Source: Luteimonas endophytica (GTDB lineage Bacteria; Pseudomonadota; Gammaproteobacteria; Xanthomonadales; Xanthomonadaceae). Taken from it: 64,000 nucleotides of DNA. Shown here piece after piece: positions 3,335 to 11,668 of the stretch. The DNA lies in NCBI RefSeq assembly GCF_029887875.1, contig NZ_JARXRM010000035.1, forward strand, positions 124,001 through 188,000. Reading direction: 5' to 3'. Numbering within the stretch: position 1 is the stretch's first letter; the number at the start of each line of letters is the position of its first letter. The translations under genes and the position numbers were made by a program. Under the pieces are notes generated by a model. It did not search any database. It saw only the letters and a program-made list of their open reading frames with translations, and was not told where the DNA came from.

Positions 3335-6304
3335 CTAGCGATGCCGCTGCCGGGCGGGCGAGGGCGCCACCTCGAATTCCCCGACCAGCACGGTCTCCGC
3401 CCGCTCGGCCAGCCGCAGCGTGACCTTGCGATCCCGTTGGGCGGGCGTGCCGAACCCGGTGCTGAGCCACAGCTGCAGGGTGGTGGCGCCGGCGACCAGC
3501 TGCTGGCGATCGCCGAAGAAGTTCGCTTCGACGCGGTAGGTCCCGGGCTTGGCGTCGCGCAGCGCGAATTCCTCGGGGCCGTAGCCGCCGGTGAAGTCGC
3601 GCGACATGCGCCCGCCCTGCCGGGTCAGCCGGTTGCCGTAGTAGGCCTTCTCGCCGTTCGGATCGGTGACCCACAGGTCCATGTCGCTGTTGTCGCTGTC
3701 CCAGCCGAGCACCACGCGCAGGTCCAGCGGCAGGTTGCGCAGCAGGCGCGGATCGAACCGGTCGGTATCGAGCGGCTCGGGCGCGGTCGCGACGATCGCG
3801 TTGAGTTCGGCCAGCGCGGTCTGCTCGATGTCCTGGAAGCGGCCGTCCCATTCGCCCTCGACCACCTGGTACAGCGCTTCGACGGCCTGCTGCCGCTGGC
3901 CGGTGGCCGCATAGGCCAGCGCCAGGTCGCGGTAGCTCTGCGGCTCCTCGGCGCCCATGGCCAGCACCCGCTCCAGCACCGGCAGCGCGAGGTCGGCGCG
4001 GTCGGCCTGCATCAGGCGGTAGCCAAGCACCCGCAGCACGTGGCGGTTGTCGAGGTCCATCTCGGCGAGATTGGACAACACCCGCAGCGCCAGCCCGGGC
4101 TGGCCGCGCTCGAACAGCAGGTCGGCGACGTCCAGATGGAAGGCGGTGCCCTGCGGCTGGCGCGCGCGCTCGTCGAGGTACATGGCGTACAGGTCCGCGG
4201 CGGCGGCCTGTCGCAGGCGCCGGGCGTAGGGCGAGTCCGGGCGCCACGGCTGCAGCGCGATGGTGGCCGCAGGTGCGGCGGGCGACGCCCCGGGCGCGGA
4301 CACCGCCTGCTGCGGCCGCGAGCCTGTCGGATGGGCGCGGTCGAGGGTGGCCGGTTCCGGCGCCGCGCCGACCGGCGCCGGCGGAGGCGCGGATGCCTGC
4401 GCCAGCGGCCGGGCCGATGCCTCCCGCGCCGCCTCGTCGCGCGCGATCGCGGCCGTGGCGACCGCGGCGCCCTCCGCAACCTCGGCGTCGGCGTCGCCGA
4501 GCGCGCGCATCGGCGCTTCCCTGGGCGCCTCCTTGGGAAATGCACGCTGCCACCAGTCGGTGCGCTCGGCCCAAGCGGCGGCCACGGCATCCAGGCGCGC
4601 CTGCCGGCCCTGCCGGTGCTCGGCGCTCGCCGTCGCCTGCAGGCGCTCGAACGCGTCGCGCAGCGCCGCGGGCGGTTGGATCCGGTAGCGCACGTAGTCG
4701 GCCACGTCCTCCAGCACCAGCAGGGAGGTCTCGGGCGTGACCACGCCGAACCTGCGGCCGATGGCGGCGATGGCGGCGCGGTTGCGGCCGGGGTCGGCGC
4801 GCAGCGCCGCCAGCGAGAACCGCGCCCATTGCATCGCCGCAAGCCCGCCATGCGGCGCATCGCCGATCCGGACCTCGACCGGCTCGACCCGGCCGCCGCG
4901 GGAGAGCCGCAGGCGCAACCGCGCGGCGGGTTCCGTCAGCCGCCCCGCGATCCGCAGAAAGCCGTCCCGAGCGACCATCGATTCGGCGACCAGGTCGACC
5001 GCGCCCACGCCGTCCATCGAGACCAGGCGCGGCGGCGCGCGCAGCAGCGCGGCTTCCGCCGCCGCCAGGCCGCCGCTGTCCTCCAGCGCGATCGAGCTGC
5101 CGCGGTTGGCGGCGGCCAGCGCCGCCAGACGAACGCTGTCGCCGGCGCTGCCGGCGTGGATCGCGAACAGGCGCTGGGCCCCGCCCAGCGTCGGGAACGG
5201 CTGCGCGCCGTAGTTGAACAGGCCGTCGCCGAACAGCAGGTATTCGCCGATCGCGGGGTCCGGGGTCCAGCCGCCCGGGTTGGACGCGCCGTCGTAGACG
5301 GTGTCTTCCAGCGCACGGCGCAGTGCCCGCCAGTCGCCATCGGCGATCTCGAACGCACCGGCGACTTCCGCCGTGTCGCGCAGCCGGATGAGTTCCACCC
5401 GGGCGTCTCCTGCGGCCTCGAAATAGGCGTCCAGCAGCGCGAACTCCAGGTCGTGGGCGCGCCGCAGGCCGCTGGCGGAGCTGTCCCAGAGCAGGCCGAT
5501 CCTGGCCGGCGGGGTCCTCGGCGGCGCCGTGTCGCCGACCGGGATCTCGGCCAGGAACCAGGTGTCGCCGTCGTGGACCTGCAGCCGCGTGGCGGGGGCC
5601 GTCGCCGCGGGGAAGCGCAGGGTGACGCCGCGCTGCGGGCGGAACGCGCTCCGCTCGAGGCGCAGCCGGTGGATGCCGTCGCGGCCGGTGGTCATCGCCC
5701 GGTCCCGCATCAGCCCGACCAGTTCCGGCCGGTCGCGGCCCAGCACCGACAGGTGGAGCGAATCCAGGCCGGCGGCGAACTGCAGCGGCACGGTCGCCGC
5801 CCGGCCGGCCCCGTCGCGCGTCAGCGGCTCGAGCAGGGTGACCCGTACCCGGCGGCTGCCGCCGGCCGGGAACGGATACACGCGCAGGCGGAAGAAGTCG
5901 CCCTCGGTCTGCTCGAGCAGGCCCGGATCGATGCCACGGCGCTGGATCTCCTCGAACACCTGGCGTCCGCGCGTCTTCTCCACCGGCACCGCGTCGCGCA
6001 TCCTGCCGTCGATGTCCAGCGCGAAACCGACCACCTGCTGGCCGGGACGCAGCGGGAACTGCAGATTGCCCTCGAGCACCCGGGCATTGGGGTTGCCGAA
6101 CACCATGTCGATGGTGGTGCGCGCCACGCCGGCGCCTGGCTCCACCACCACCGACGCGGACTCGAGCCGCACCGGAAGCTCTTCCGGCGCCACCCGGATC
6201 AACGGCGGCGCGATCGGCGCGGTGAGGTGGCCGCCGTCCTGGGCCGGCGCCGGCGCGTGGGCGAGGGCGGCGCACAGCAGCGCCGCCATGATCGGATGAC
6301 GCAT
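3335..6304 (-). CDS. Secreted VIT / vWA-like / DUF2135 protein
   Basis: This is a 989-residue protein with a signal peptide (MRHPIMAALLCAALAHAPAPAQ). A VIT domain spans about residues 40-160 (DMVFGNPNARVLEGNLQFPL, VEKTRGRQVFEEIQRRGIDPGLLEQ). Next comes a vWA-like region whose DSSAS keeps the DxSxS metal-site pattern. A low-complexity Ala/Pro linker and TPR-like helices (FERGQPGLALRVLSNLAEM, LALAYAATGQRQQAVEALYQ) follow. The end is a DUF2135 domain (WDSDNSDMDLWVTDPNGEKAYY, YRVEANFFGDRQ). The start at 6304 gives a proper signal peptide; the frame runs further upstream without one. VIT/vWA proteins act as extracytoplasmic binding or scaffold modules; the ligand is unknown. Confidence 0.88.
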   Translation of the reverse strand: MRHPIMAALLCAALAHAPAPAQDGGHLTAPIAPPLIRVAPEELPVRLESASVVVEPGAGVARTTIDMVFGNPNARVLEGNLQFPLRPGQQVVGFALDIDGRMRDAVPVEKTRGRQVFEEIQRRGIDPGLLEQTEGDFFRLRVYPFPAGGSRRVRVTLLEPLTRDGAGRAATVPLQFAAGLDSLHLSVLGRDRPELVGLMRDRAMTTGRDGIHRLRLERSAFRPQRGVTLRFPAATAPATRLQVHDGDTWFLAEIPVGDTAPPRTPPARIGLLWDSSASGLRRAHDLEFALLDAYFEAAGDARVELIRLRDTAEVAGAFEIADGDWRALRRALEDTVYDGASNPGGWTPDPAIGEYLLFGDGLFNYGAQPFPTLGGAQRLFAIHAGSAGDSVRLAALAAANRGSSIALEDSGGLAAAEAALLRAPPRLVSMDGVGAVDLVAESMVARDGFLRIAGRLTEPAARLRLRLSRGGRVEPVEVRIGDAPHGGLAAMQWARFSLAALRADPGRNRAAIAAIGRRFGVVTPETSLLVLEDVADYVRYRIQPPAALRDAFERLQATASAEHRQGRQARLDAVAAAWAERTDWWQRAFPKEAPREAPMRALGDADAEVAEGAAVATAAIARDEAAREASARPLAQASAPPPAPVGAAPEPATLDRAHPTGSRPQQAVSAPGASPAAPAATIALQPWRPDSPYARRLRQAAAADLYAMYLDERARQPQGTAFHLDVADLLFERGQPGLALRVLSNLAEMDLDNRHVLRVLGYRLMQADRADLALPVLERVLAMGAEEPQSYRDLALAYAATGQRQQAVEALYQVVEGEWDGRFQDIEQTALAELNAIVATAPEPLDTDRFDPRLLRNLPLDLRVVLGWDSDNSDMDLWVTDPNGEKAYYGNRLTRQGGRMSRDFTGGYGPEEFALRDAKPGTYRVEANFFGDRQQLVAGATTLQLWLSTGFGTPAQRDRKVTLRLAERAETVLVGEFEVAPSPARQRHR

Positions 6305-6411
6305 CGAAACCCCCGTTCCGGATCGGTGTCCCCAGGGCGAACGTACCCGAAACGCGAGTGGGGTTGAAGGATGCGGCGCGGCCCCGGGCAACGCCGATCG
6401 CGGGCCGCCGA

Positions 6412-6945
6412 TCAACCGCGCGCCGGCAGCACCCGGGGATTGCGCAGCACCGCCGCCGACACCAGCGACACCAGGACTCCGACCGGGAAGATCTCCGCGA
6501 ACGTCATCGGCAGCCGGTACAGCGGATTGCGATACATCCGCTCGAACCTGCCGGCCTGCTCCACCGCCTGCGCCAGCGCTTCCCCGGTGGCCCCGCCGGC
6601 ACGCGCCCGCTCCACCATCATCCGTCCGAACAGGGCGGCGAAGTCCTTGTCGATCAGGGCCATCGCCAGTTCCCAGGCGGCGACGTAGAACAGGCCGGCC
6701 ACTAGGCTGATGGCCAGCCCCAGCCCGAACGCCGGCCAGAACCGGATCACCCCGCCGCCGGCGCAGTCGCGATGGCGCTTGATGCCGACGAACACCGCCG
6801 AAAGCGCCACCAGCATCGCCGCGTAGCCCAGCGCCATGCCGTAGCTGGGAGGGGGTTGGCCGCCATAGGCGAGGCTGACGGCGAGCAGTGCGGAGCCGGC
6901 GACCAGGCCGGCGGCGACGCCGTACTTCAGGAAGGTGGGCCACAT
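6412..6945 (-). CDS. DUF4199-family inner-membrane protein
   Basis: This 177-residue protein has four predicted membrane helices, including YGVAAGLVAGSALLAVSLAY and FGLGLAISLVAGLFYVAAWEL. Between them a cytosolic helix pair contains AQAVEQAGRFERMYRNPLYRLP, a layout typical of DUF4199. MWPTFLKYG is the likely start because the longer reading adds a non-hydrophobic stretch. It lies between a LuxR regulator gene and the VIT gene on the same strand, with gaps of about 106 bases on each side. The molecular function of the family is not known. Confidence 0.82.
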   Translation of the reverse strand: MWPTFLKYGVAAGLVAGSALLAVSLAYGGQPPPSYGMALGYAAMLVALSAVFVGIKRHRDCAGGGVIRFWPAFGLGLAISLVAGLFYVAAWELAMALIDKDFAALFGRMMVERARAGGATGEALAQAVEQAGRFERMYRNPLYRLPMTFAEIFPVGVLVSLVSAAVLRNPRVLPARG

Positions 6946-7051
6946 GGCGGTTGCCTCGCACGATGAAGGGACGCCGATTGGGCGACCGGCCGGCACCGGC
7001 CGCAATCGCCAAAACGGGTGATTTGGCCCGTTTTCGCCATTCCGGGTGGGC

Positions 7052-7471
7052 TCAGGGCACCAGGCCCAGCTCCCGTGCCCGCCGCAGGGCCTCGGTGCGG
7101 CGCCGCGCCCCCAGCTTGCCGAACAGCCGCGCGACGTGGGTCTTCACCGTGTTCGGCGACACGTGCAGGCGCGCCGCGATTTCCTTGTTGGAGTGACCGG
7201 CCGCGATCTCGGCCAGCACCGTCATTTCGCGCGGGCTGATGCCGAGCGCGGCCCGGGCCCGGGGGTTGCCGTCGAACTCCGGGCCCGGTGCGGCCCGGCG
7301 CCCCAGCAGCCGCGCGCCCAGCCACAGCCCGAGCGCCAGGAAGCCCGCGGCGAGCAGCAAGTCGTACACCTCCCCGGCGTGGCTGCGCGCCAGCCGCTGG
7401 TAGTCCAGCCCCTGCAGCGCGAGCGTGCCCAGGGCCAGCAGCGCACCGTAGAGGAGTGCGTGTTTCCACAT
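7052..7471 (-). CDS. Membrane-anchored LuxR-type transcription regulator
   Basis: Two N-terminal hydrophobic helices (HALLYGALLALGTLALQGL; LLLAAGFLALGLWLGARLLG) are followed by a LuxR/GerE helix-turn-helix: SPREMTVLAEIAAGHSNKEIAARLHVSPNTVKTHVARLFGKLGARRRTEA. There is no receiver domain, so the membrane part presumably senses or tethers. The start is either ATG 7471 or ATG 7483. It is the first gene of the minus-strand run LuxR, DUF4199, VIT, membrane protein and could control that run. This regulator/DUF4199 pairing is familiar from Xanthomonadaceae genomes. Confidence 0.88.
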   Translation of the reverse strand: MWKHALLYGALLALGTLALQGLDYQRLARSHAGEVYDLLLAAGFLALGLWLGARLLGRRAAPGPEFDGNPRARAALGISPREMTVLAEIAAGHSNKEIAARLHVSPNTVKTHVARLFGKLGARRRTEALRRARELGLVP

Positions 7472-7579
7472 GGCGCCCAGCATGCCTGCAAGCGGGCGCG
7501 GCGCAAACCGGCCCGCCGGTCCGGCCCGAGCGCCGCGCGATCCCTGTCGCCGGCTGCCGGCCCGGCCGGCCGCGGGCGC

Positions 7580-8811
7580 TCAGTCCGGGCGTGGGCGCGG
7601 GAGCGGGGCTTCGGCCGCGGAGCGGCTGGGCACGAGCGCGGTGACCTCGCCGTGCTCGTGCCGGACCCGGAACGGACCGGCACGCGGCAGCGCCGCGGCG
7701 GGCGCCCTTCCGACAGCGCCTCGAGCAGCGGCATCGGGTCGACCCCGAATTCCACCTCGCGCACGTCCCTGCCGAGGGTCGAGCGGATCACCGCGCTCTC
7801 GAACCCGGCCACCTCTTCCAGGTAGGGAATGGCCTGGTGGCGCGCGCGCGCGATCGAGGAACGCCAGCGCCTCGGTGCTGGCGAACTGCTGCGGCGGATG
7901 AGCCGCGGCATAGCCGGCGAACACCGTCTCGAACGCGTCGCCGCCGTGCGCCAGCAGGACCCGGGTGGTGAGCCGCGCGGCGCTGGCGACCTGGCCGGTG
8001 CGGGCGTTGAGCGCCAGTTCGCGCAGGATCCAGATTCCCGGGTCGTCGCCGAGCGTCGCAGGCGCTCGATCTGCCGCCGCACCTGATCCAGGCCGACCCG
8101 CGAGAGGTACGCCGGCAGCATCTCGAAGACGATCGCGCGCAGGGCGGGGAGGGCGGGAACGACCTCCGCGGCGAGAGCCATCACCTGGTCCGCGACCGGC
8201 CTGCAGTGCGCATCCAGCCAGTAGCCGCGGTGGAGGCTGCCGCCGGCGAGATGGATCTCCCAGACCCGCTCGAGCGGCAACCGGGCGAGCGCCTCGCGCA
8301 CCGGCTGCCGGCCGTTGCGCTCGTTGACCCACAGGTTGTGCAGGTCGAGCAGCAGGCCGCAGTCGGCACGGCGCGCGACTTCGGCGATGAACTCGCCGTC
8401 GGCGAGCTCGCCGGGGCGCGGGCGCAGGTAGTTGACGTTGTTCTCGACCGCGACCGGTACGCCCAGTCCGTCCGCCATCGCGCGGAGGTTGGCGGCGGCC
8501 TGCGCGGCGCTCTTCGGGGTCTGCACCGGCGGCAGCAGGGAGCCCGCGTCGACCCGGCCTTGTGGTGCCGGCACCGCGTTGAAGCTGAGGTGCTCGCCCG
8601 CCCGGGGCGCCCGCAGCGTGGAGACCACCTCGCGCATCAGGCCCATGCGCCGGGAATCGGGCGCGAGCGTGCCGCCCACCGGCGAGGCCACGCCATGCAC
8701 CAGCTTGCGTTGCGGCAGTGCGGCCAGCTGGTCCAGTACCCCGCTGTCCATCCGCATCGGCTGCCGCGGGTCCCCGGTCTCGAACCAGAAGAATTCGGGC
8801 TCGATCTCGAT
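7580..8811 (-). pseudogene. DUF692 (MNIO) enzyme fused to a DUF2063-like domain, broken by frame changes
   Basis: The N-terminal half reads as a multinuclear non-heme iron-dependent oxidative enzyme (MbnB/BufB/TglH type): IEIEPEFFWFE, KLVHGVASPVGG, GEHLSFNAVP, VAVENNVNYL, CGLLLDLHNLWVNE, WEIHLAGG and FEMLPAYL. The C-terminal half (LRELALNARTGQVASAARL, GYAAAHPPQQFASTEAL, IPYLEEVAGFESAVI, GVDPMPLLEALSEGR) resembles the DUF2063/BufC partner. No single frame carries it. Frame changes are needed near 8059, in an alternating CG run near 7842-7853 and around 7695-7712, and no normal start codon is available upstream of 8811. MNIO enzymes modify Cys residues in ribosomally made peptides; no Cys-rich precursor is visible nearby. 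It is either a true pseudogene or an assembly artefact. Confidence 0.75.
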
Positions 8812-8912
8812 CCTGCTTGGAAACGTGGTCCGGACGGTACGCCGGACAGGGAGGCCGCGGGTGCCCGTCTCCGATACAGTGGGCGCCCCTCCCGTAGCGC
8901 CACGGACACCGC

Positions 8913-9842
8913 ATGACGACTCCCCCTTCCGCCTATCCGATCGGCACGCCCGGCCTCCCGTGGGGCGCTGCCGAGGTGGCCAGCTGGCTGTCGCGGCAGA
9001 CCCGCAAGCGCGGCTACGGGGAGGTGCTGGCGGCGATCGAGCGCCTGCGCACGGACTTCGACGTGGAGGAGTACGGGCAGCTGGACTACCAGGGCGAGCG
9101 CTACCCGCTGGTCGCGCTCAGGAGCCGCGGCTGGCGCGACGACCTGCCTGTCGGCCTGGTGACCGGCGGCGTGCACGGCTACGAGACCAGCGGCGTGCTC
9201 GGCGCGCTGCAGTTCGTGGAGCGGCACGGATCGGACTATGCAGGCCGGCTCAACCTGCTGGTCGCGCCGTGCGTGAGTCCGTGGGCTTACGAACGGATCC
9301 AGCGCTGGAACATGCATGCGGTCGATCCCAACCGCTCGTTTCGCGCCGACAGCCCGGCACAGGAATCGGCGGCATTGATGGGACTGGTCGCCCCGCTCCG
9401 CGAGCGGGTGCTGGTGCATGTCGATCTGCACGAGACCACCGACAGCGACGAATCCGAATTCCGCCCGGCACTGGCGGCGCGCGACGGCAAGCCGTACGAA
9501 CCGGACGAGGTCCCCGACGGCTTCTATCTGGTCGGCGACAGCGCGGACCCGCAGCCGGCCTTCCAGCAGGCGGTGATCGAGGCGGTCGCCAGGGTCACCC
9601 ACATCGCCGCGGCCGATGCCGACGGCCGGATCATCCGGTCGCCGATGGCGGCGCCGGGGGTGATCAACTATCCGGTCGCCGAGCTGGGGCTCTGCGCGGG
9701 CGTGACCCGGGCCCGCTACAGGACCACCACCGAGGTCTACCCCGACAGCCCGCGCACGACCGCGGAGCAGTGCAACGCCGCGCAGGTCGCGGCGGTCCGC
9801 GCGGCGCTCGACTTCGCGCTCCAGCGCGGTGGGGGCCGCTAG
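8913..9842 (+). CDS. M14-family metallocarboxypeptidase
   Basis: This 309-residue zinc enzyme has the ligands in GGVHGYE (His88 and Glu91), the substrate-binding DPNRSF, a third ligand in HVDLHETTD and a catalytic Glu in TTTEVYPDSP. There is no signal peptide, so it is probably cytosolic. Its length and the DLHET segment fit the M14 branch near succinylglutamate desuccinylase/aspartoacylase, so the substrate could be a C-terminal residue of a peptide or an acyl-amino acid. It is divergent from the broken MNIO gene. Whether the two share a pathway is speculation. Confidence 0.88.
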   Translation: MTTPPSAYPIGTPGLPWGAAEVASWLSRQTRKRGYGEVLAAIERLRTDFDVEEYGQLDYQGERYPLVALRSRGWRDDLPVGLVTGGVHGYETSGVLGALQFVERHGSDYAGRLNLLVAPCVSPWAYERIQRWNMHAVDPNRSFRADSPAQESAALMGLVAPLRERVLVHVDLHETTDSDESEFRPALAARDGKPYEPDEVPDGFYLVGDSADPQPAFQQAVIEAVARVTHIAAADADGRIIRSPMAAPGVINYPVAELGLCAGVTRARYRTTTEVYPDSPRTTAEQCNAAQVAAVRAALDFALQRGGGR

Positions 9843-10072
9843 AAAAACCCCCTGCGGCGAGCCCCTGGAGTCCGCGGGCCGTGGCGTGCCCGGAACCATC
9901 GCGGGCGGATGCTCGCAAGCCCGAGTTCGCAAGGCTGTGACACGCCTGCATCTAGTCTGGAGGTTTCAGCAACGATAGAAAGGGCCAGCTCAAGGACCGC
10001 CTCGACGGCTTGATCTGGCTCCGCGCCATCGTCATGAACATCTTCTCGCCGGGCTACATCCGTGGGGAATCG

Positions 10073-11668
10073 ATGCCGGGCGACCAGTCGTGGGTCGCCC
10101 GCGGCTTGCGCTACCCGGTCGACGACCGAGGCCGGGGCGGGGCGTGGGGGCGCATCGAGGCGCTTGGCGCGCCCTGGCCCCTGTTGAGGGCCTGCGTCGT
10201 CGGCTCGGCGATTCTGCTTGGCGGTTGCGCGGTCGCGCCGCGCGAAGCGCCGGAGCCCGGTTCCATCGTTGCCGAGCCGCGACAGCGGTTCGTCGCTGCC
10301 GGGCCCGGCGCGGCGGCGCCCGTCGTCGACGCGTGGTGGACGCGCTTCGACGACCCGCTGCTCACCGAGTACGTCGACCGCGCGGGGTTCCATCACCCCT
10401 CGGTTCTTCAGGCGGTTGCGCGGGTGGAGCAGGCGCGGGCGCAGGCGCGGATCGCCCGCGCCGACCTCTACCCGCAGGTCGACGGGCGCTTCAGCGCATC
10501 GCGCCAGCGCCAGAATCTCGCCGGCCTCGGCGTCGGAGCGTTGTTGCCGACGTCTCCCGGCCAAGGCGGCGGCGACACGGGGCAGGCCGCGGACCAGGCC
10601 ACCGGCTTCACGACCGGCAGCTTCTCGCTCGACGCGAGCGTCAGCTGGGAACTGGATCTGTGGGGCAGGATCGGCGCGCAGAACGCGGCTGCGCGCGCCG
10701 ACTTCCTCGCCAGCGCCGAGAATCTCAGGGCCGTGCGGCAGTCGATCGCGGCACAGGTGGCCCGATCCTATTTCGCCTTGATCGAAGCGCGCCGGCAGGT
10801 CGCCGTTTCCGAAGAGCGCGTCGGCGCCCTCGCGGAGATCGCGCGTCAGGTCGGCGATCGCGCCGATGTCGGCGTCGCGCCACCGGGCGACAAGGCCCTG
10901 GCGTTCGCCAATCTCGACCAGGCCCGCGCGGGGCTGGCGCAGCGGCGCGAAGCGTCCGAGCGAGCCGCGCGCGCCTTCGACACGCTGATCCGCGCCTGGC
11001 CGGATGGGGCCGTCGTCGCGGGCGAGGTCCTGCCCGAGGCGCCGCCGCCGCCGCCGGCGGGGCTTCCGGCCGGGCTGCTGGCGCGGCGGCCGGACGTCCG
11101 CGCAGCGCGGCTCGCCCTGGCGGCCGCCGGCTATCGCGAAGCGGCGGCCGAGCGCGCGCTGTTGCCGGGGATCAGCCTCACGGGCTCAGCCGGGACCAGC
11201 AGCAGCGAGCTTTCCAGCCTGCTCGACGGAGACTCCTTCGTGTGGAGCATTGCCGGCGCGATTCTCCAGCCGATCTTCCAGGGCGGGCGGCTGCGCGCGC
11301 AGGTCGAGGCGGCAGAGGGCCGGAAGGCGGAAGCCATCGCCGCCTACGCCGAGGTCGCACTGCAGGCCCTGTCGGAAGTCGAGACGGCGCTGGCGGTGGA
11401 CGAGGTGCTGGCACAGCGGCAGCTGGCCCTGAGCAGCGCGGCGGAAGCCGCCGAGCGATCGGTGGCGATCTCGTTCAATCGGTATCGCGCCGGCCTCGAG
11501 CCGTTCATCACGGTCCTGCAGAGCGAGCAGACCGCGCTCGACGCGAGAAGCGCGTACGTCGCGGCCAGTCGCGCTCGCCTGGACAACCGGGTCGATCTGC
11601 ACCTGGCGCTCGGCGGCGGTTTCGATGATCCGGCGATCCCGCCGCCACCGGTGGAGCAACCTCGATGA
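10073..11668 (+). CDS. RND efflux outer-membrane factor lipoprotein (OprM/NodT family)
   Basis: This TolC-like channel has two repeated coiled-coil modules. Signatures include WWTRFDDPLLTEYVDRA, SWELDLWGRIGAQNAAA, ARSYFALIEARRQVAV, GLPAGLLARRPDVRAARLALAAA and SWELDLWG/FQGGRLRAQVEAAEGRK. A lipobox (AILLGGC) marks acylation about 52 residues after ATG 10073. That is a long leader, so a later non-ATG start is possible; the frame is open upstream to 9956. GGGGA precedes 10073. The stop overlaps the ATG of the adaptor gene (ATGA). It forms the outer-membrane exit of the tripartite pump encoded here. Confidence 0.92.
   Translation: MPGDQSWVARGLRYPVDDRGRGGAWGRIEALGAPWPLLRACVVGSAILLGGCAVAPREAPEPGSIVAEPRQRFVAAGPGAAAPVVDAWWTRFDDPLLTEYVDRAGFHHPSVLQAVARVEQARAQARIARADLYPQVDGRFSASRQRQNLAGLGVGALLPTSPGQGGGDTGQAADQATGFTTGSFSLDASVSWELDLWGRIGAQNAAARADFLASAENLRAVRQSIAAQVARSYFALIEARRQVAVSEERVGALAEIARQVGDRADVGVAPPGDKALAFANLDQARAGLAQRREASERAARAFDTLIRAWPDGAVVAGEVLPEAPPPPPAGLPAGLLARRPDVRAARLALAAAGYREAAAERALLPGISLTGSAGTSSSELSSLLDGDSFVWSIAGAILQPIFQGGRLRAQVEAAEGRKAEAIAAYAEVALQALSEVETALAVDEVLAQRQLALSSAAEAAERSVAISFNRYRAGLEPFITVLQSEQTALDARSAYVAASRARLDNRVDLHLALGGGFDDPAIPPPPVEQPR

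Follow-up and report, generated by a model that had tools for sequence, protein, structure and literature searches.

In one described MNIO (DUF692) system, the partner protein HvfC supports the mixed-valent iron state of HvfB, and joining the two into one engineered chain (HvfBC) gives higher activity than co-expressing them (PMC13419390). A class of partners structurally related to NGO1945/TglI without a DUF2063 signature has been termed PME-type 2 (PMC12452194). The natural MNIO fusions mentioned in this literature are PflD and other MNIO–nitroreductase proteins, along with MovX, to which an RRE/wHTH is fused; ChrH is said to carry a further domain of unknown function, and the HvfBC fusion is a laboratory construct. 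We found no natural fusion of an MNIO to a DUF2063-like partner in the open-access literature, including the accessible portions of PMC10214503, PMC11002830, PMC12141560, PMC12257519, PMC12636437, PMC12710340, PMC13060819, PMC13174530 and PMC13419390; subscription papers and supplements lie outside this scope, and absence from print is unproven.

We examined a window (the whole 64,000-nt stretch of Luteimonas endophytica DNA analyzed here) in which the original prediction had placed a frame-broken fusion of this kind. The whole remnant spans 7635–8812 on the minus strand, and the features of the locus are as follows:

7052–7483 (−), LuxR/GerE-type regulator ORF, intact, 143 aa
7635–8053 (−), remnant of a partner-protein-like domain (DUF2063-like, then a short beta segment), over two frames
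7690–7702, near 7700 (−), further frame change toward the 3′ end
7840–7852 (−), alternating CG run with a change of coding frame
8054–8057 (strand not applicable), linker deletion scar, with a frame change at the scar
8058–8812 (−), remnant of the MNIO (DUF692) catalytic domain in one open frame, about residues 31–282 of the 500-aa Luteimonas salinisoli protein
8813–8874 (strand not applicable), 5′ deletion scar, with homology blocks stopping at 8875 and 8812
8913–9842 (+), weakly AstE/AspA-like hydrolase ORF, intact, 309 aa, divergent (Pfam score under its cut-off)

The assignment of the N-terminal half to the MNIO family held firmly: the minus-strand segment scored 133.5 bits for PF05114 (cut-off 25), and the block from 8812 to 8058 comprises 251 codons free of stops. 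Downstream of it, coding homology runs in one frame over ∼8053–7850, switches to the MNIO block's frame over ∼7838–7695, and returns to the former frame over ∼7690–7635, so the frame changes predicted near 8059, in the CG run and near 7700 were all borne out by frame-by-frame homology. A complete barrel in an intact gene is not what the window holds, as the first ∼30 codons are gone and the frame is broken. Close to the remnant, on the same strand, lie a VIT + DUF2135 + TPR protein (3335–7012) and a DUF4199 protein (6412–7005).

The nearest intact copy that we found is a 500-aa protein of Luteimonas salinisoli (locus L003; 80% amino acid identity over 251 residues). At the nucleotide level, the window aligned to this locus in three collinear blocks (9820–8875, 8812–8058 and 8053–7635). 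The MNIO block aligned without gaps to L003 5946–6700 at 84% identity, and the C-terminal block aligned to L003 6883–7307 at 81% identity. Two large deletions separate the blocks, both additional to what the original prediction had seen. Between 8812 and 8875, the window has 62 nt versus 607 nt in L003 (∼545 nt missing), a stretch that in L003 holds an entire candidate precursor gene (5599–5841) and the beginning of the enzyme gene (∼30 codons); at 8054–8057, the window has 4 nt versus 182 nt (∼178 nt of interdomain linker missing). The prediction had reported that no start could be found in one frame, and indeed no in-frame start was found upstream of the conserved part of the window MNIO; the 5′ deletion explains this, as it explains why no Cys-containing peptide lies nearby. 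With ∼720 nt missing, the present sequence, if confirmed by resequencing, would not give one frame. The locus is orthologous in the two species, as the same AstE/AspA-like neighbor occurs in both. In L003, ∼3.6 kb of other genes (∼7400–10900) lies between the fusion and the LuxR-type homolog and is absent from window positions 7484–7634.

Searching for intact fusions with short Cys-containing ORFs beside them, as had been proposed, proved fruitful: we collected ten intact fusions, all with an upstream CxxC(H/C)SG motif. Besides L003, these comprise L004 (Xanthomonas bonasiae), L005 (a Terriglobia MAG), six loci from the window's own family (L024–L027, L029 and L030) and L052, whose genome belongs to a different family of that class; L004 is closely related to L024, and L024–L026 fall in one genus. 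Frames were open in L003–L005, and three intact relatives scored 124.7–143.2 bits for PF05114. A 281-aa MNIO from a Zetaproteobacteria MAG (L006) lacked the C-terminal half and was excluded from the set.

The fusion gene is rare in sampled genomes. Surveys covered sampled genomes at a threshold of E ≤ 1e-40, with at most four to five candidates per genome scored in the family, class and phylum surveys, so their counts are lower bounds. At least 12 matches were obtained among 297 sampled genomes of the family (six full-length, five to the MNIO part only, and the window copy). At least two of 369 genomes in the class survey had a match (the window's own and genome G442), as did at least one of 398 in the phylum survey (only the window's own) and at least one of four in the order of G442. 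The alignment behind the class and phylum searches had eight full rows and one partial row (L003, C-terminal part only). None of the 17 listed genomes of the same genus gave a match at E ≤ 1e-40. Among plasmids, two records matched the MNIO half only, and no fusion was found.

We asked what is encoded directly upstream of the intact enzymes. The motif CxxC(H/C)SG occurred just upstream in 10 out of 10 intact fusion loci and in none of 2000 dinucleotide-shuffled upstream regions (counting any forward frame within 350 nt, with a full ORF not required). It sits in ORFs of ∼75–100 aa; the L003 candidate precursor contains GRLGCEGCHSGFDIRYLIERDF, and genome G442 has two tandem copies of a candidate containing LGCTACCSGWDIRFDI. 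We discarded a CxxC(H/C)SG-like match at position 515 of L005 as a chance hit, given its large distance from the enzyme. In a search with the L003 peptide, a precursor was found beside the fusion in seven out of seven other fusion genomes tried and was absent from the window's own genome (0/1). The statement that no Cys-rich precursor accompanies the window gene therefore stands, as no CxxC(H/C)SG was found in the six frames of 6500–10500 and the relevant stretch is deleted. The idea of an orphan substrate does not survive, given that all 10 intact homologs carry a candidate precursor directly upstream and that the window has lost it. Put in terms of a RiPP cluster, a short precursor ORF beside the modifying enzyme is present at 10 out of 10 intact relatives and missing from the window.

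The upstream CxxC(H/C)SG ORF is likely the substrate of the enzyme. It might instead encode an unrelated small conserved protein, as it has no Pfam match and its NCBIfam matches are weak and far under cut-off. We consider this unlikely in view of its position and conservation: the gap to the MNIO is 4–32 nt at eight loci (L004 and L029 left out; enzyme starts of L026 and L027 presumed), the motif is conserved across two phyla and occurs in tandem copies in one genome, and dN was below dS in all 10 pairwise comparisons computed (five loci; L004 not in the set). A precursor preceding the MNIO is, moreover, the gene order reported for bufferins, and used for searching, in PMC12452194. Judged by eye, the candidate precursors have no signal peptide; they match the correlation between signal-less precursors and PME-type 2 partners described in the same paper.

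The C-terminal half had been predicted to be DUF2063-like, a claim that held for the predicted fold and failed for the sequence. Searches of three intact fusions gave no match to Pfam DUF2063 (PF09836, PME-type 1) at E up to 5, and the half has no Pfam or NCBIfam match of its own. A profile comparison of the fusion C-termini with Pfam-type DUF2063 proteins (15 of 16 such proteins, taken from the same bacterial family) gave 1.5%, which is not above shuffled columns (up to 9.8% in 20 shuffles); separate partners of split-type loci gave 35%, and a joint alignment gave 53%, with the shuffle control covering the fusions alone. We thus rejected DUF2063 membership by sequence, given the missing Pfam match and a profile comparison not above shuffles. 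A sequence-profile search of the PDB with the C-terminal alignment likewise returned nothing meaningful (best E 0.36).

The C-terminal part of the full-length model was poor; the isolated L003 domain was modeled with AlphaFold2 (mean pLDDT 78.7, from three sequences). Foldseek alone ranked TglI best (E 0.11, probability 0.97), BAX second, and the DUF2063 structure 3DEE third (E 1.1), with no match below E 0.001. We took a second look at 369 Foldseek-picked PDB chains using VIA-align, with the intact L003 domain and not the broken window copy as query. The top two rows were TglI chains (Z 9.7 and 9.5; the first, 8hci_A, aligned over 130 residues with an rmsd of 4.4) and the third was NGO1945 (3DEE; Z 6.0 over 111 residues), followed by an unrelated chitosanase (Z 3.3) and by MbnC in fifth and sixth place (Z 3.3 and 3.1). 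According to the VIA-align output, Z values below 8, or below ∼13 for helical proteins, may reflect a common arrangement only.

These weak Foldseek E-values, together with the absent Pfam match and the profile comparison of the fusions alone, leave some room for an unrelated helical extension in place of a partner domain. That seems quite improbable to us, since the top three rows among 369 chains are all MNIO partners and two more such rows (MbnC) appear among the 20 with Z ≥ 2. It is also opposed by gene order: four out of five split-type loci have a separate homologous gene after the MNIO, where partners usually sit (motif search; in the fifth, L031, the motif used did not find a partner gene), and this separate partner matched the fusion C-terminal domain at an hhalign probability of 99% (E 2.7e-17). 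The predicted fold thus fits a PME-type 2 partner, with an NGO1945/TglI-related structure and no DUF2063 signature.

Other MNIO clusters were met along the way. The window's own genome carries a three-gene oxazolin-type cluster elsewhere (L001; contig C7, ∼115.2–117.4 kb), consisting of a precursor ORF ending in EGKCGEGKCGGAA (EGKCG-type by eye), an MNIO and a Pfam DUF2063 partner; all of its frames are open, and from its sequence the cluster looks intact. In G442 (L068, 2517–8907), a tandem pair of CTACCSGWDIRF precursors and the MNIO–partner fusion come directly after a canonical bufferin-like trio (a Cys-rich precursor with a signal-like start, an MNIO and a Pfam DUF2063 protein); beyond the fusion, an FTR1/cytochrome c gene lies on the other strand. 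The split-type loci L032–L035 consist of a CRPCLSGLDR precursor, an MNIO and a separate partner, with an upstream ORF of ∼200 aa that, judged only by eye, resembles a cupin of the cysteine dioxygenase type.

We then weighed decay against error. Differences between the MNIO block and L003 were distributed 32/24/65 over the three codon positions, and the NG86 estimates were dN 0.114 and dS 0.408, a bias indicating that the block was under selection until recently. Nonsynonymous divergence of the window from outgroups was slightly above that of L003 (0.209 vs. 0.171 to L004; 0.209 vs. 0.181 to L027). Out of 65 positions invariant in the 10 intact fusions, four were changed in the window block and none in L003; we treat this as only supporting evidence, because in a leave-one-out comparison 5 of the 10 intact copies, more distant ones, themselves differed at 2–13 otherwise invariant positions.

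The original prediction leaned toward real decay and noted the CG run as a typical error site. One frame change does sit in that run and the assembly is a draft in 46 contigs, so assembly or sequencing error could conceivably be hiding a fused gene and a precursor that are intact in the organism. We regard this as very unlikely. Slippage in a CG run cannot account for gaps of ∼545 and ∼178 nt with homology resuming on either side, which rules out sequencing error as the sole cause and upholds decay. The assembly is 99.99% complete and 0.03% contaminated, both flanking ORFs are open, and invariant residues are altered within the open MNIO block itself. Nor was the precursor matched anywhere in this assembly by the query that retrieved it from every other genome tried. 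Real decay is in all likelihood what produced the lesions.

Could the remnant still work as a truncated MNIO, translated from an ATG at 8757 and served by another partner or substrate? The open 251-codon block and its still visible third-position bias would allow for this, which we nevertheless deem very unlikely: the ATG lies beyond the invariant E33/E35/W40 region, the deletion has taken the first barrel strands, and the invariant W101 and S103 are changed. Neither the linker nor a partner domain in frame is left, the ORF continues into other sequence, and the genome's other MNIO has an adjoining Pfam DUF2063 gene of its own. Taken as a whole, the evidence is best explained by a natural MNIO–partner fusion gene that survives in the window only as a pseudogene, with the system dead in this genome, a reading to which we assign a probability of about 85%.

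As for the intact relatives, we see roughly even odds that they represent an undescribed two-gene RiPP system pairing a leader-type CxxC(H/C)SG precursor with a natural single-chain MNIO–partner enzyme. In these relatives the system consists of two genes, one for a candidate precursor of ∼75–100 aa with a conserved CxxC(H/C)SG core and one for a single polypeptide in which a linker connects an N-terminal MNIO barrel to a helical partner-like domain at the C-terminal end, with a short beta segment resembling a partial RRE behind it. Extrapolating from MNIO biochemistry, with HvfC as the model for its role (PMC13419390), the C-terminal domain would most likely hold the precursor leader and help set the iron center, and the MNIO domain would most likely oxidize one or both core cysteines with O2. 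Deletion of the precursor gene, enzyme start and linker, along with the broken frame, has left the system dead in the window genome. So far, the proposed system has a scattered occurrence in the Luteimonas/Xanthomonas family, in a second family of the class and in Acidobacteriota.

Among known systems, the closest by predicted structure is the pearlin pair TglHI (PDB 8HI7/8HCI): the full-length model found its best PDB match in chain B, taken as TglH, and the C-terminal half matched chain A, taken as TglI, best of all. TglH and TglI are separate proteins, whereas the fusion family has one chain; TglA has an added C-terminal Cys (table in PMC12452194), whereas the CxxC motif of the fusion-family precursors is internal. 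The oxazolin and bufferin maturases HvfBC and BufBC, with their DUF2063 partners, combine an MNIO and a partner as the fusion family does. Scores of three intact relatives fell well below the cut-offs for both BufB, the best NCBIfam match (99.1–122.6 bits vs. 310), and HvfB (73.6–94.8 bits vs. 360); the window frame scored 114.2 and 83.8 bits, respectively. Unlike HvfBC and BufBC, the fusions have a partner half lacking the Pfam DUF2063 signature, and their precursors lack a signal peptide by eye.

MovX, according to PMC13419390 and PMC12452194, is likewise a natural MNIO whose own chain includes a domain that probably binds peptide; that domain is described as an RRE/wHTH, compared here by description only, whereas the fusion family has a helical DUF2063-like domain followed by a short beta segment. 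PflD (PMC12636437) is a natural MNIO fusion too, but to a second enzyme, a nitroreductase, and not to a partner domain. The adjamnio-7 precursors, exemplified by Novilysobacter spongiicola in PMC12452194, resemble the candidates here in carrying CxxC, lacking a signal, adjoining an MNIO and coming from a related host; compared by description only, they may correspond to the split-type relatives L031–L035 (CRPCLSGLDR) or to the fusion-family precursors. A partner search restricted to the gene after the MNIO, as in PMC12452194, would be expected to miss fused partners. By analogy, what was engineered as HvfBC (PMC13419390) seems to have a natural counterpart in the intact family, and the proposed system, if true, would be nature's version of that laboratory-built enzyme.
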